Assembly: GCF_016887565.1 (NCBI RefSeq)
Contig: NZ_CP069396.1
Span: 10,646,001 to 10,710,000, forward strand
Reading direction: 5' to 3'
DNA length: 64,000 nt
Origin: Archangium violaceum
GTDB taxonomy: Bacteria > Myxococcota > Myxococcia > Myxococcales > Myxococcaceae
The notes below the pieces were generated by a model. It saw only the letters and a program-made list of their open reading frames with translations. It was not told the origin of the DNA and ran no database searches. Of the stretch, positions 31,932-38,537 are shown piece after piece. A program made the translations under genes and the position numbers. Each line of letters begins with the position of its first letter. Within the stretch, counting starts at the first letter, position 1.

Positions 31932-33137
31932 ATGCCTCCCGACCTGCCCCCGCCCCCCGCCCTCTTCCGCCGCCGGCTCCTCGTCGTGATGCTCATCACG
32001 GGACTGGTGCCGCTCGTGCTGCTCGGCTTCCTGGCCCGGCAGGCGCTCCAGGAGCTGCTCTCCGTGTCCCTGGCGCCCGTGGAGCAGGTGCTCGAGGAGC
32101 TCTCCACCGGACTGGCCCGGGAGGGCCACTCCCAGGCCGCGCTCGACGAGGCCCGCCTCAACCTCGCCCAGGCGGAGCTCGCCCGCCGCGCCCTCGCCCG
32201 CCGCACGCCCATGCTCATCGCGGCCCTGCTGCTCGTCTCGGCCACGGTGCTCACGGCCGCCGCCGTGCTGCTCGGCCGGGCCCTCACCCGCCCCGTCTCC
32301 ACCCTCACCCAGGGCATGTGGTCCTACGCACGCGGAGACCTCTCCGTCCAACTGCCCGCCCCCGACTCGCCCCGCGACGAGCTCCAGTTCCTCCTCGTCC
32401 AGTTCAACCGCATGGGCCGCGAGCTCGCCGCCCAGCGCGAGCGCCTCAAGTCCGCCGAGCAGATCGCCGCCTGGCAGGACGTGGCCCGCGCGCTCGCCCA
32501 CGAGCTGCGCAATCCGCTCACGGCCATGAAGCTCGCGCTGGCGCGACTCTCCCGCGCGGACGGACCTCCGGACGCCACCCGTATCGCCGAGTCCGTCTCC
32601 CTCCTGCAGGAGGAGGTGGAGCTGCTCATGCGGATGACCCGGAGCTTCTCCGACTTCGCCCGTCTGCCCGCGCCGCGCTTCCAGCCCGTCGCCCTGCGCC
32701 CCCTGCTCGCCGAGGTGTGCGCCCTGTATGAGGGCACTTCTCCCGTCCCCGTGGAGCTCCAGCCCGGCCCGGAGCCCACCCTCTCCGCGGATCCGGATGG
32801 CCTGCGCCGCCTCTTCGGCAACCTCCTCAAGAACGCCACCGAGGCCTCACCGTCCGGCGCCGCCCCCGTGCACCTCTCCATCGAGGCGCTCCCCTCCTCC
32901 GTGCGTGTCTCCATCCGCGACAACGGCGGAGGGATTCCCCAGGTGCTCGAGGGCCCCGCCCTCACCCGGGGACTCTTCAGCACCAAGCCCGGCGGCAGCG
33001 GCCTGGGACTCCCCATCGCCCAGAAGATCGTTCACGAGCACGGAGGCACCCTGCGTCTGGAGCCCGCGCCCGGGGGTGGCACGCTCGCGCGCGTGGAGCT
33101 GCCCCTCAGCCCTCCACCCGCTGGGGTACATCCATGA
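31932..33137 (+). CDS. NtrY-like membrane sensor histidine kinase (3' end altered by cassette insertion)
   Basis: 401 residues: TM1 (LLVVMLITGLVPLVLLGF), a short helical periplasmic loop, TM2 (PMLIAALLLVSATVLTAAAV), HAMP, HisKA with ALAHELRNPLTAMKLAL, HATPase with NLLKNATEAS, DNGGGI and GGSGLGLPIAQKI. This is the NtrB/NtrY class that usually partners sigma-54 activators. ATG at 31932 was chosen ahead of the first membrane helix. The catalytic fold is complete at VELP. The last ten residues (LSPPPAGVHP) run through the 25-bp repeat copy at 33102 into the toxin cassette. Read across to the far flank, the frame would end AGAAPP-stop. Confidence 0.92.
   Translation: MPPDLPPPPALFRRRLLVVMLITGLVPLVLLGFLARQALQELLSVSLAPVEQVLEELSTGLAREGHSQAALDEARLNLAQAELARRALARRTPMLIAALLLVSATVLTAAAVLLGRALTRPVSTLTQGMWSYARGDLSVQLPAPDSPRDELQFLLVQFNRMGRELAAQRERLKSAEQIAAWQDVARALAHELRNPLTAMKLALARLSRADGPPDATRIAESVSLLQEEVELLMRMTRSFSDFARLPAPRFQPVALRPLLAEVCALYEGTSPVPVELQPGPEPTLSADPDGLRRLFGNLLKNATEASPSGAAPVHLSIEALPSSVRVSIRDNGGGIPQVLEGPALTRGLFSTKPGGSGLGLPIAQKIVHEHGGTLRLEPAPGGGTLARVELPLSPPPAGVHP
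33102..33126 (+). repeat. 25-bp direct repeat, left copy
   Basis: CCCCTCAGCCC...CGCTGGGG, identical over 25 bases to 34635-34659. It lies in the last codons of the NtrY-like kinase. Its closing GGGG is 7 nt before the toxin ATG and can act as its ribosome-binding site. Confidence 0.95.
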
Positions 33138-34246
33138 GAATCATCCTCTGTTGCTTGGGGCTTCTGTTCGCCGCACCCGCGTTCGCCAACTCGGTGGAGA
33201 ACGGGCTGTGTCATGCGCGGCCCCAGCCAGTCGAGACGATGGAGAAGTCGGAGAAGCTCTGCCGCGCCTTCATACGTGCCCTGGGGCGCATGCCAGACGA
33301 GGCAATGAGGGAAGTGCAGACGATGTTGTCTCCCGAGAGCCTGGCACTGATGGGGACGATGACCGCGGCATGGCTCGGCAGCCAGGGCATTCCCGTGCTC
33401 GGCCAGGCCGTGGACGTGGCGCTGCTGGCGCTGGGCGCCATGATGGCCGCAGCACAGACGGCTGCCGTGAAGGACTCGCTGTGGCACTACGTCAACTCCG
33501 CGACCACCGCGAGAGATGAGGCGGGCCTCGACGCGGCGGCAGCACACCTCGCACGAGCCATGGCGACGGTGGGGGTGAGCGTCGTGACGTTCATCCTGAT
33601 GAAGAAGGTATCCGGCAAGGTGCAGACGCGGCCAGGGCCACGCGAGCCCCCCTCGCTACTGCTCGAGCCCGTACCGGTAACCATGGGCGGTCGTTTGGGT
33701 AACACAGTGGGAGCCTCGCCGGGCGTCGTCCCCGGAGTTGGGGTAGCACCTGCGCTGGCCACAGCGGGTGGGCGCCCGACAGGAGGGCGGGCACAAGCGG
33801 AAGGCGAGAAACCCAAGAAGGTGGACCTCGAGGCCTTCAAGGAGTGGATTGAAAAGGTGAAACGGCGGCCCGCCCGCGAGGACTCGGAGTCCTACAGGTA
33901 CCAGAGGAAACATGCGGGGCCAGAGGAAATGCATGTCTCTGGGGGTGGCGAGGAAGTCTGGGCGGACGGTGCTCGCCTGGAGAAGGCGAGGCTGCTCGAG
34001 ATCAAACACATTGGCGATGCCGAGAGAAGCCCGTTCATTGCTGGCTCGAAGTGCGCCGAGAAAGCCCGGACCATGATTCTGAATGCACTCATGGACGAGT
34101 TCGCGCGTTACGCCGCGGTCATCAAGGATCCCCACACTCCTGTCGTGGAACTCGAGGTGATTGTCAACGATAGCAGGGCTGTTCCCCTCTTCGAGGGACT
34201 CCTGAAGAATTTTGGCATTCCAGGTGAGGTCGTCGTTCGTCCTTGA
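33134..34246 (+). CDS. SitA5-like polymorphic toxin with PD-(D/E)xK nuclease-type C-terminus
   Basis: 370 residues. A signal peptide (MRIILCCLGLLFAAPAFANS, type I cleavage after AFA) is followed by a helical hydrophobic middle (GTMTAAWLGSQGIPVLGQAV, VTFILMKKV), a Gly/Pro/Ala linker (about 180-225), and a C-terminal toxin domain. This holds YRYQRKHAG, Asp278 in WADGARL and Glu289-Ile-Lys291 in LLEIKHIG, the D-(x10)-ExK layout of restriction-endonuclease-fold toxins. It resembles the SitA5 group of myxobacterial kin-discrimination toxins, but I find no lipobox, which SitA proteins normally have. ATG overlaps the kinase stop (ATGA). Lower GC than the neighbours. Confidence 0.8.
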   Translation: MRIILCCLGLLFAAPAFANSVENGLCHARPQPVETMEKSEKLCRAFIRALGRMPDEAMREVQTMLSPESLALMGTMTAAWLGSQGIPVLGQAVDVALLALGAMMAAAQTAAVKDSLWHYVNSATTARDEAGLDAAAAHLARAMATVGVSVVTFILMKKVSGKVQTRPGPREPPSLLLEPVPVTMGGRLGNTVGASPGVVPGVGVAPALATAGGRPTGGRAQAEGEKPKKVDLEAFKEWIEKVKRRPAREDSESYRYQRKHAGPEEMHVSGGGEEVWADGARLEKARLLEIKHIGDAERSPFIAGSKCAEKARTMILNALMDEFARYAAVIKDPHTPVVELEVIVNDSRAVPLFEGLLKNFGIPGEVVVRP

Positions 34247-34262
34247 GACGGGGAGAAGGTGG

Positions 34263-34634
34263 ATGAAGTTCTTCATCATGTCGGAAGATGGTGGATTGCC
34301 ATCTGCCGCGGATTTCATTTCCAGTCTGAGCACGCGATGGCCCGGTGCCACGGTGAAGCCAATCTCCAATCCCCAGAGAAGCTACGCTCTGGAGTTCAGT
34401 GTCCCCATGACTGATTCGGCATTGGAGGGTTTGCTTGCCAGGACAGGCGACTCCATCACATTCGAAGGTGCTTCTCTTCGAGAGATATCTGGGTTCGTTC
34501 AGTGGTGCCGAACCCTTGTGCCCGCTCACCTGCCAGTCATTTTCTGCGATGAAAGCATGAATGGCGAGGTGAAGGTGACCCCGATGATGACAGCAGCGGA
34601 AATACTCGAGGCATTCCATGCAAGTGGAGGGTGA
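34263..34634 (+). CDS. Cognate immunity protein (SitI5-like)
   Basis: 123 residues, no signal peptide, acidic and mixed alpha/beta (MKFFIMSEDGGLPSAADF, PVIFCDESMNGEVKVTPMM). It directly follows the toxin (16-bp gap) with a strong GGGGAGAAGG ribosome-binding site, the standard place for an immunity gene. Its stop codon touches the right 25-bp repeat. Codon use is the least GC-biased in this part of the window, consistent with recent acquisition. Immunity function is inferred from position and size. Confidence 0.8.
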   Translation: MKFFIMSEDGGLPSAADFISSLSTRWPGATVKPISNPQRSYALEFSVPMTDSALEGLLARTGDSITFEGASLREISGFVQWCRTLVPAHLPVIFCDESMNGEVKVTPMMTAAEILEAFHASGG

Positions 34635-34659
34635 CCCCTCAGCCCTCCACCCGCTGGGG
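34635..34659 (+). repeat. 25-bp direct repeat, right copy
   Basis: Identical to 33102-33126. It contains the stop codon (34639-34641, minus strand) and last codons of the GAF/PAS kinase at 34639-36993. Together with flanking bases it restores the inverted pair GTGGAGCTGCCCC / GGGGCAGCTCCAC that both convergent kinase genes encode as VELP. Confidence 0.95.
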
Positions 34660-36993
34660 CAGCTCCACCGTGAAGGTGGAACCCCGGCCCTGCTCGCTCT
34701 CCACGTGGATGTGTCCCCCGAGCAGGGTGACGATCTGCTTCGTGATCCACAGCCCGAGCCCCAACCCCCCATAGTGCCTATCCGGCACGGCCCGCTCGAA
34801 GCGCTCGAAGATGCGCGCCTGGTCCACCCCGGAGATGCCGATGCCCTCGTCCCGCACGCGCAGGCACACGCCCTCGGCGGTGGCCACGGCGGACAGCTCG
34901 ATGGGCCGGCCCTGCCCGTACTTCACCGCGTTGGCTAGCAGGTTCGTCACCACCTGGTCCAGGCGCGAGCGGTCCCATCTCCCCACCAGCGGCGACTCCA
35001 GCGACAGCGACAGGGCACAGCCCGCCGTCTCCAGCTCCGGCCGCATGCGTGCCGCCACCTCCTCCACGAGCACCGCCAGATCCATCTCCTCGAGCACCAG
35101 GGGCAGTCGGCCGGAGGTGATGCGGCTCACATCCAGCAGATCTCCCACCAGTCTGTTCAACCGTTCCCCCTGCCGCTGACACGTGGCGACCCACTTCGCC
35201 ACCCCGGCGCAGTCACCCGAGGTGGCCGCGTGGCGGACCAGGCTCTGCAACCCCAGTTGCAGCGCGGTGAGCGGTGTGCGCAGCTCGTGGCCGGCGATGC
35301 CGAGGAACTCCTCCCGCAGGGCGACGGCCTCCCGGGCCTCCCTGTACAGCCGGGCGTTGTCGATGGCGTACGACGCATGCGCGGCGTACTCCCGGGCGAA
35401 GGTGAAGTCGTCCTCGGTGAACGTCCGCTCCGAGGAGCCGAGCACCAGCACTCCCGCCACGCCGTGGGAGGCGGAGAGCGGGATGACCATCAGGGAGTGG
35501 ATTCCGAGCCGCCAGCGCAGCTCCCGCCACACATCGGTCCGCTCCACGCGAGAGTCGGCCGGGAAGTCCATCACCGCCAGGAGCCGGGGTTGTCCCGAGA
35601 CCATGGCCTCGTGGACGGGAGTCCCCTCGGAGATCGCCGGAAGCTCCGTGCTGGCGATGAGTGACTCGGCCGCGAGATTCTCATGGGTCACCGACACCAG
35701 TCCGAGCGTCCCGTCGGGCCTCCATCCGAACAGTGCCGCCGTGTTGGCGAGCGCGGGGACGCACAGCCGCGCCAGGGTCCGCGAGGTCTGCTCCGGGTCC
35801 AATGACGAGGAGAGCACCGCGCTGGACTCGGCCAGGAAGCGCTGCGCCTCCGTGGCCCGCTTGCGCGCGGTGACGTCCTGGATGGTTCCGATGGAGCCGC
35901 GGGGGCGGTGCGCCTCGTCGAAGAGCGGCACGGCGGAGATGACGAGGGTGCCGCGCCGCTGCCCATGCACCTCGAGCTCCAGCTCCACGTCGAGCACCTC
36001 CTGGCCCGTCGCGGCCGCCCGCTGCATCGGCAACTCCTCGGGCGCGAGCGCGCGACCCTTGTCGAGATAGCGGATCGGCTGGCGCTCCCCCTCGGGCGCG
36101 CTGAGCGAGATGTTGCTGTCGAGCGGCAGCCCGTGCAGCCGCGAGAACCACGTGTTCTGCCGGATGCGCTGGCACTCCCTGTCCTGGGCGATGCCGATGC
36201 CCACGGGAATGACGTCCAGCAGCGTCTGGAAGTCGGCCACCTGCCGCCGCAACTCGCGGTCGAGCGCCTCCGCTCGTGCCTCCGCCTCGTGGCGGGTGTG
36301 CTCCAACTCCTGGCGCAGCCGGTGCGTCTCCAGCGCGAACGCGACGCAACCGGCCAGATCCTCGGCGAGCGCCAGCGCGTCCTCGTCCAGGCGCGCGGCC
36401 CGCTCCCGCGTGGCGAAGGACAGGACCCCCACGAGCTGGTCGCCCAGGCGCAGGGGGACCGCCAGGCAGTCCAGGAGCCCAGCCTCCTGAAGGCGCGGCA
36501 GCGCCTCCTCCTCCGAGGACAGGGCCAGGAGCACCTGCTTGGAGGGCCCACGGAGCAACTCCGGCCGGCCCGTGCGGGCCACTCTCCGGGACAGCAGCGA
36601 GGGAGGACCGCTCGGCGGCCCATGCACCTGGCCGTGGGGCGAGCGGAAGGCGGCGATCCGCCGGAGCACTCCGTCCTGGAGCAGGTCGAGGTCACACCAG
36701 TCCCCCAGCTCCGGCAGCGCCACGCGGCCGAGGCTGCGGAACACGTCATCCCGCGCGACGCACGCGACCAGCGCCCGGCTCATCCGCCCGAGCAGACCGC
36801 CCCGAGAGGCGTGCCCGGGGCCGTGGCCCCCGGAGCCTCCCCCGGAGAGCCGCGCACCCGCCAGGGGCCTGCCCACTCCCTCGCTCCCGAGTTCCTGGAG
36901 AGAACTGGTGAGGAGTGCCTCACGGCGAGCGCATGACCCCAGGGCATGAGCGAATCCCACTGAAGCACCACGGATGCCCGCCTGCCTTTTCAC
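34639..36993 (-). CDS. Sensor histidine kinase GAF-PAS-GAF-HisKA-HATPase
   Basis: 784 residues from the GTG at 36993, which follows a strong GGGAGG at 8-9 nt. An ATG at 36783 (714 residues) is the alternative and still includes all domains. Order: GAF (about 90-255), coiled coil, PAS (about 275-395, ending IGTIQDVTARKRA), GAF (about 405-575), HisKA with GIAGHELRTPLTALQ, HATPase with NLLANAVKYG, RDEGIGI and GLGLGLWITKQI. No membrane segment, so it is cytosolic. Its last codons and stop lie in the 25-bp repeat shared with the NtrY-like kinase, so the two genes were once overlapping and convergent. It is divergent from the NtrC-type gene at 37149. Confidence 0.93.
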   Translation of the reverse strand: MKRQAGIRGASVGFAHALGSCARREALLTSSLQELGSEGVGRPLAGARLSGGGSGGHGPGHASRGGLLGRMSRALVACVARDDVFRSLGRVALPELGDWCDLDLLQDGVLRRIAAFRSPHGQVHGPPSGPPSLLSRRVARTGRPELLRGPSKQVLLALSSEEEALPRLQEAGLLDCLAVPLRLGDQLVGVLSFATRERAARLDEDALALAEDLAGCVAFALETHRLRQELEHTRHEAEARAEALDRELRRQVADFQTLLDVIPVGIGIAQDRECQRIRQNTWFSRLHGLPLDSNISLSAPEGERQPIRYLDKGRALAPEELPMQRAAATGQEVLDVELELEVHGQRRGTLVISAVPLFDEAHRPRGSIGTIQDVTARKRATEAQRFLAESSAVLSSSLDPEQTSRTLARLCVPALANTAALFGWRPDGTLGLVSVTHENLAAESLIASTELPAISEGTPVHEAMVSGQPRLLAVMDFPADSRVERTDVWRELRWRLGIHSLMVIPLSASHGVAGVLVLGSSERTFTEDDFTFAREYAAHASYAIDNARLYREAREAVALREEFLGIAGHELRTPLTALQLGLQSLVRHAATSGDCAGVAKWVATCQRQGERLNRLVGDLLDVSRITSGRLPLVLEEMDLAVLVEEVAARMRPELETAGCALSLSLESPLVGRWDRSRLDQVVTNLLANAVKYGQGRPIELSAVATAEGVCLRVRDEGIGISGVDQARIFERFERAVPDRHYGGLGLGLWITKQIVTLLGGHIHVESEQGRGSTFTVELPQRVEG

Positions 36994-37148
36994 GAAATGA
37001 CCTCCCAGGGCGCGGGACTCCTCCGCCGCCCCCCTGGCTCCCTGCACTCAGCTCATCGCACTCTGGAACAACAGGAACTGGGCGTGCTCCTACTCCCCCA
37101 GGAGGCGCACACCACCCTGGGCGCCCCCGAGTCGACTACGCTGGACCC

Positions 37149-38537
<1,389 letters not shown>

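Follow-up and report, generated by a model that had tools for sequence, protein, structure and literature searches.

Insertion of genes together with a long duplication of the target sequence has been proposed for the restriction-modification genes of Helicobacter pylori (Nobusato et al. 2000, as quoted in passages of PMC3031569 and PMC1643837). Gene-end duplications of 109–950 bp have also been described for E. coli conjugation, where a circularised molecule with a truncated gene end was integrated by a single crossover (passages of PMC3240628). Here we describe a related arrangement in the myxobacterial genus Archangium. The DNA analysed (the window) is a stretch of 64,000 bp (G000:C1:10646001-10710000) from a 13.2-Mb single-contig Archangium genome (G000), in which a two-gene cassette coding for a predicted secreted toxin and a putative immunity protein separates the 3' ends of two convergent histidine kinase genes. 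We found that this cassette is probably an insertion with target duplication, which involves no recombinase of its own. Judged from its sequence, the locus looks like one instance of a process that affects the ends of several core genes, both in Archangium and in a related genus.

As far as the quoted passages go, the pattern resembles the H. pylori case and may be considered a variant of insertion with long target duplication. In both systems conflict genes lie between long target duplications of variable length, and these duplications were found by comparing relatives. The differences concern cargo, target and host. The inserts described here consist of a secreted polymorphic-type toxin and its partner gene, a SitA5-type or HNH cassette, or a candidate defence system, the targets include a convergent-gene overlap in addition to gene ends, and the host is a myxobacterium. 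The window cargo is not of the restriction-modification type, and GmrSD_N and N6_N4_Mtase genes are present in the recA insert of another Archangium genome (G001). Moreover, the 25 bp duplicated in the window are short for the name 'long target duplication'. With the E. coli experiments our locus shares a gene-end duplication beside inserted DNA, but according to the passages available those experiments involved a laboratory plasmid with designed homology and no natural cassette.

Myxobacterial toxin-immunity genes have been linked to other vehicles. The sitAI kin-discrimination loci of Myxococcus have been described as residing on prophages and further mobile elements, and for one M. xanthus strain set all strain-specific effector loci were located on such elements (passages of PMC5562445 and PMC10047993), which tells against the present route as the main one there. 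These loci resemble ours in being myxobacterial toxin-immunity cassettes that vary between close strains, and one of our scars, at rimO, contains a SitA5-type cassette. Unlike them, the window toxin lacks an NCBIfam match to SitA (E ≤ 1) and, by eye, a lipobox. Contact-dependent inhibition genes of Burkholderia thailandensis are also mobile polymorphic toxin-immunity genes, but they reside on a composite IS2-like (insertion sequence) element of about 210 kb that has its own transposase, and circle formation requires the activity of the toxin itself (passages of PMC6350997). Nuclease toxin-immunity pairs of M. xanthus delivered by type VI secretion represent another kind of kin discrimination (passages of PMC12077131). 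A description of duplicated-end toxin cassettes in myxobacteria was not found among titles, abstract openings and passages, subscription papers not being covered, and the literature on 'long target duplication' yielded nothing on myxobacteria or polymorphic toxins by titles and abstract openings.

The cassette is bracketed by a perfect 25-bp direct repeat (33102–33126 and 34635–34659), and the 1,508 bp between both copies contain exactly two genes. A first, sequence-only reading of this DNA had described this arrangement, and it was confirmed by our repeat search and gene calls. Within the window there are exactly two occurrences of the 25-mer, each on the plus strand, and a BLAST comparison of 450 bp with 450 bp gave an E-value of 1.7e-10 for the repeat pair. 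When we searched 12 genomes with up to two mismatches, it was found twice in G000 and once in G005 (at the right junction of the corresponding locus, with one mismatch), whereas the 10 others had none; the reversed pattern gave no match in any of the 12. The idea that the same 25-mer might stand beside other toxin pairs was not borne out in these genomes; each site duplicates its own sequence.

On the left side, the cassette adjoins an NtrY-like histidine kinase gene (31932–33137, plus strand; HAMP, HisKA and HATPase_c by Pfam and orthologues), the stop codon of which (TGA, 33135–33137) overlaps the start of the toxin gene (33134–34246, plus strand). The partner gene (34263–34634, plus strand) ends directly before the right repeat copy, and the stop codon of the convergent kinase (TCA on the plus strand, 34639–34641) falls within this copy, as had been claimed. 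When the flanks are joined, the left kinase ends with VELPLSPPPAGAAPP-stop (TGA at 34671–34673), as also predicted, and a 35-bp tail-to-tail overlap of both kinase genes is restored, which reaches from the right kinase stop to the ancestral left kinase stop (34639–34673). The location that had been given as inside two kinase genes is more exactly this overlap of their 3' ends. It had further been suggested that the toxin borrows its ribosome-binding site from the repeat. The toxin ATG is indeed preceded by GGGG at a distance of 7 nt, but in G005 the same toxin stands at the same place without GGGG, and thus the borrowed site is not a conserved feature.

We compared this junction in six Archangium genomes (G000–G005). 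The left kinase gene is directly followed by a response regulator gene in G003 and in eight of nine orthologous loci from other genera, G008 being the exception. A second, convergent kinase gene separates the two in the remaining five Archangium genomes (G000, G001, G002, G004, G005). All five genomes that have both kinases carry an insert at their junction, and three unrelated cargos were observed: G000 and G005 have a Tox-REase-2 pair, G002 and G004 have a 249-amino-acid protein that looks secreted together with a 273-amino-acid protein (no Pfam or PADLOC matches), and G001 has a PSCyt3/HXXSHH pair. No match to the window toxin was detected at the kinase locus of G001, G002 and G004. By eye, a copy of the left-kinase 3' end can be recognised at the right junction of all five genomes, reading PLSPPPTAEARP-stop in G002, and BLAST aligned left and right copies in G000 (25 bp, 100% identity), G005 (43 bp, 86%) and G001 (43 bp, 91%). 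With a left-kinase tail at five of five right junctions and a cargo that differs between species, the earlier proposal of an insertion with target duplication in the overlapping kinase ends was supported.

Both kinases end with -VELP-, and this ending gives rise to an inverted repeat of 13 bp. One might consequently regard the 25-bp repeat as a coincidence of two similar C-termini that are read convergently, with no duplication involved. We consider this extremely improbable: the repeat is direct and not inverted, and its right copy matches in register the tail and stop of the left kinase in other species. The same ending, shared by the two HATPase C-termini, is the reason for the hairpin at the kinase joint, which the sequence-only reading had taken as the target of insertion. 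Folding of the unshuffled sequences yielded −42.3 kcal/mol for the joined G000 flanks, −18.0 for the G001 junction and −15.0 for the 37-mer duplicated at rimO. Because of the weak G001 fold, and because the other targets have nothing in common with the kinase joint (between duplicated stretches of different genes, exact matches do not exceed 10 nt), hairpin targeting as a general rule was rejected.

The perfect identity of the G000 copies might suggest a recent event. However, the cassette has diverged between G000 and G005 about as much as its flanks. Identity at four-fold degenerate third positions was 88.7% for the left kinase, 84.5% for the toxin, 76.8% for the partner (56 sites) and 82.9% for the right kinase. 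For this reason the cassette is not recent, and these sequences make it most likely that it entered before G000 and G005 separated. Both G000 copies share a T that is absent from G005, which suggests later conversion between the copies, with 25 bp being little to judge by. On account of the divergence from G005, the identity was discarded as proof of recent insertion; conversion would explain it as well.

These divergence data also fit a single ancestral insertion that duplicated the kinase overlap, the cargos being swapped later on by homologous exchange through the flanking kinases. The window would then record one old event, and there would have been no repeated insertion at the kinase site. 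To this scenario we give a little less than an even chance. It is favoured by the fact that the positions of all five inserts almost coincide, with the starts of the right copies differing by no more than a base or two among G005, G002 and G004, but the G001 repeat starts about 9 nt further out. Moreover, a single event cannot account for recA, where three species carry three cargos with duplications of 47, 103 and 396 bp at the 3' end.

At recA of G005, a toxin cassette is accompanied by 47 bp left over from the end of the gene (85% identity), and some 770 bp of extra unmatched sequence precede the resumption of synteny with G000. In G004, an insert of about 3.4 kb (L111:3403-6766, G004:C422) is bracketed by 103 bp comprising the recA end and its terminator. 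Pairwise, 99 of 103 positions of these copies are identical (90.1% in the multiple alignment), and the three genes of the insert match the PADLOC candidate defence system PDC-M55A/B/C. G002 has the same downstream gene as G004 and a single copy, and it represents a clean empty site for the 103-bp duplication. In G001, another insert of about 3.4 kb (L110:1191-4592) carries FRG, GmrSD_N and N6_N4_Mtase genes and is flanked on both sides by 396 bp of the recA end (387 of 396 positions identical). The coding part of the displaced copy is closest to the recA gene of G001 itself (98.0% vs at most 93.6% to others), and it was therefore copied from the lineage's own gene or from that of a close strain.

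A small cassette flanked by direct repeats at the 3' end of a gene is reminiscent of integrative elements. One may therefore consider placement in trans by a transposase or site-specific recombinase (from a phage, an insertion sequence or an integron-like element), with the repeat as attachment site or target-site duplication. A possible insertion sequence fragment near the zwf event (by eye; see below) would fit such a scenario. Nevertheless, we regard it as unlikely. The duplications measure 25, 43 and 43 bp at the kinases, 47, 103 and 396 bp at recA, 37 bp at rimO, 100 bp at zwf and 115 bp at an AMP-binding gene. This range of lengths and the lack of a common core argue against one transposase or one attachment site, and the 25-mer is unique to the kinase locus. 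No recombinase, transposase or integrase domain was detected by Pfam in the two open reading frames (ORFs) of the window insert, nor was any detected among the proteins scanned from the rimO insert and the recA inserts of G004 and G001. The earlier statement that the insert has no recombinase of its own was consequently upheld, and similar scars are seen with other toxin cassettes.

At rimO of G000 (L120:9384-11269, at about 10.07 Mb of G000:C1), the last 37 bp of the gene are duplicated on both sides of a HEAT-repeat protein gene and a SitA5-type toxin gene; the latter is split into two separate pieces, which both score under the curated cut-off. In G005 the 37 bp are present once and both flanks are collinear. 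G005 could be an excision product and not the ancestral state. Direct sequence comparison demonstrates insertion with duplication at recA, and at rimO it provides only the single-copy site, not the direction. The sequence-only reading had asked for empty sites with one repeat copy in relatives; such a site was found at recA (G002 for G004) and, with the caveat on direction, at rimO, but not at the kinases. For recA, rimO, zwf and gatB, the gene assignments were verified by NCBIfam.

To the toxin family itself, 29 matches were obtained in 98 genomes, of which 22 loci were repeat-tested and 7 fragments were left out. The first test gave repeats of at least 25 nt at 3 of the 22 loci (L031, L032, L041), and a wider-flank test of 10 toxin loci added L085. 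Twelve cassette loci contain most of the toxin gene (that at G005:C9 in two frames), and direct repeats with E ≤ 1e-5 were present at 4 of them, namely the two kinase loci, recA of G005 and zwf of G076 (100 bp at 88% identity). A profile search of genome contigs with the toxin alignment retrieved six loci, five of which were already in the set; the sixth (L230) stands outside these counts.

We also surveyed about 2.06 Mb of G000 (five 400-kb stretches plus the window) for direct repeats of at least 30 nt with 78% identity, a spacing of 0.7–9 kb and abrupt ends, using mechanical ORF calls. The first three stretches were selected for known loci (recA and gatB orthologues, toxin matches) and are the non-blind part; the last two (0.8 Mb) were chosen without such prior knowledge. 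Repetitive extragenic palindrome (REP)-like sequences (ACCCTCACCCC...CCCTCTCCC) were set aside as the source of many repeats. In the first 1.264 Mb, 47 abrupt-ended pairs were found, 21 REP-like ones were removed and 26 were inspected; the corresponding numbers for the next 0.8 Mb were 53, 7 and 46. Both copies lie in called ORFs in 58 of the 72 inspected pairs (window pair included), and at least one copy lies outside in 14. Three pairs besides that of the window flank toxin-like cargo. The rimO scar has been described above. A 115-bp pair, one copy of which is near the 5' end of an AMP-binding gene, encloses HNH and DUF4265 proteins, and a 68-bp terminator-like pair encloses an Endonuclease_NS protein and a 211-amino-acid protein.

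Several observations weigh against insertion with target duplication. None of the five kinase pairs lacks an insert, and no left copy was found by BLAST in G002 and G004. Eight of the 12 toxin cassette loci show no repeat in the family test, some of them on short contigs, and at gatB of G004 a 3.9-kb segment with a toxin cassette, absent from G002, has no repeat. At zwf, an ORF about 0.5 kb past the displaced copy resembles, by eye, a transposase fragment, and an insertion sequence may have been involved in this event. Behind the left rimO copy of G000 stands a terminator that resembles the one in G002 and G004. Either a rimO end was thus already part of the incoming DNA, or the repeats recombined in G005 and the cassette was lost there. 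Pairs were also seen around genes that are not evidently toxins (205 bp at 2455433/2460753, 133 bp at 2436189/2437968), and thus the process is not toxin-specific. A direct repeat at E ≤ 1e-5 was found at 28 of 600 random positions (raw count; 510 bp vs 4,000 bp per position, the REP filter removing none). The long or multiple matches among these resemble coding repeats, and three of them (near 2436651, 1257131 and 2455766) are repeats listed in the survey. Finally, a homology of 25–43 bp is short for a RecA-dependent crossover.

Despite these points, insertion with target duplication remains our preferred reading, and its mechanism may be pictured as follows. Cassette-bearing DNA would enter the overlap of the convergent kinase 3' ends, and the target would be copied so that both kinase ends are kept. 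Insertion into an overlap spares both genes only if the overlap is duplicated, and therefore surviving events should carry a repeat; selection would retain those that leave the core gene whole. Recombination by host functions would be the likely route. A transient circle (or linear DNA) with a short gene-end piece might integrate by a single crossover, or one-sided homology might be combined with end joining. As a third possibility, a staggered break might be filled in during capture of foreign DNA (a Ku gene is present). The first two routes account more easily for long duplications and the third for short ones. It is also conceivable, but very unlikely in our judgment, that the nuclease toxins and defence enzymes aid their own spread, when breaks made by the nuclease, or by an enzyme that favours gene ends or terminators, are repaired by cassette capture while the cut ends are copied. 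If this were true, conflict genes would be minimal mobile elements without recombinases and the recA end would be a common dock.

The first cassette gene encodes a protein of 370 amino acids with a signal-peptide-like N-terminus (by eye) and a C-terminal Tox-REase-2 domain (PF15646; E = 1.3e-8, 35.6 bits vs a curated cut-off of 27.6). Among 11 aligned sequences D278, E289 and K291 are invariant, and these D and ExK residues presumably correspond to the PD-(D/E)xK nuclease motif. The sequence fits a polymorphic-type nuclease toxin. Matches to it were not detected in plasmid and phage collections. The partner (123 amino acids) has a homologue, by eye, 3' of the toxin at all 12 cassette loci read, and for this reason we call it a putative immunity protein. 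It had no match in Pfam, NCBIfam or PADLOC, and a fold search with its structure model (pLDDT 94) returned no PDB match at E ≤ 0.001. All partner homologues that carry organism names come from Archangium or Cystobacter. Judging from its family, the toxin would penalise neighbours or descendants without the immunity gene, so that the cassette would be retained.

Outside the cassette, several features of G000 deserve mention. The convergent GAF/PAS kinase gene (34639–37047, minus strand; Pfam, distribution) is itself inserted between the left kinase and the sigma-54-type response regulator (37149–38537, plus strand; start inferred, family by eye), and it thereby interrupts an operon of kinase and response regulator, which is uninterrupted in G003 and at eight of the nine loci from other genera. 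At G000:C1 1074587-1083000 toxin-like genes are clustered: a second Tox-REase-2 cassette lies there together with genes for a DUF6310 protein and for an Endonuclease_NS protein, the latter enclosed by a terminator-like repeat in two copies. Intergenic clusters of REP-like palindromes are located at G000:C1 7024087-7035965, 1211441-1218348 and 10159204-10174877. Two repeat pairs of about 250 bp and 99% identity (G000:C1 1256784, 1260545, 1263369, 1272232) lie within 16 kb and may represent one dispersed element.

Social groups of myxobacteria are separated from each other by the toxin-immunity loci they possess, and the gain of such loci has been explained by prophages and other mobile elements (passages of PMC5562445 and PMC10047993). 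The scars described here would add a second route of gain, in which units of two or three genes enter core-gene ends and the target is duplicated. The displaced gene end would provide a simple computational marker for counting such gains, and recA of G004/G002 and rimO of G000/G005 are pairs suited to bench tests. Toxins of kin discrimination, a candidate phage defence system (PDC-M55 at recA) and the earlier observations on restriction-modification genes would then fall under one pattern.

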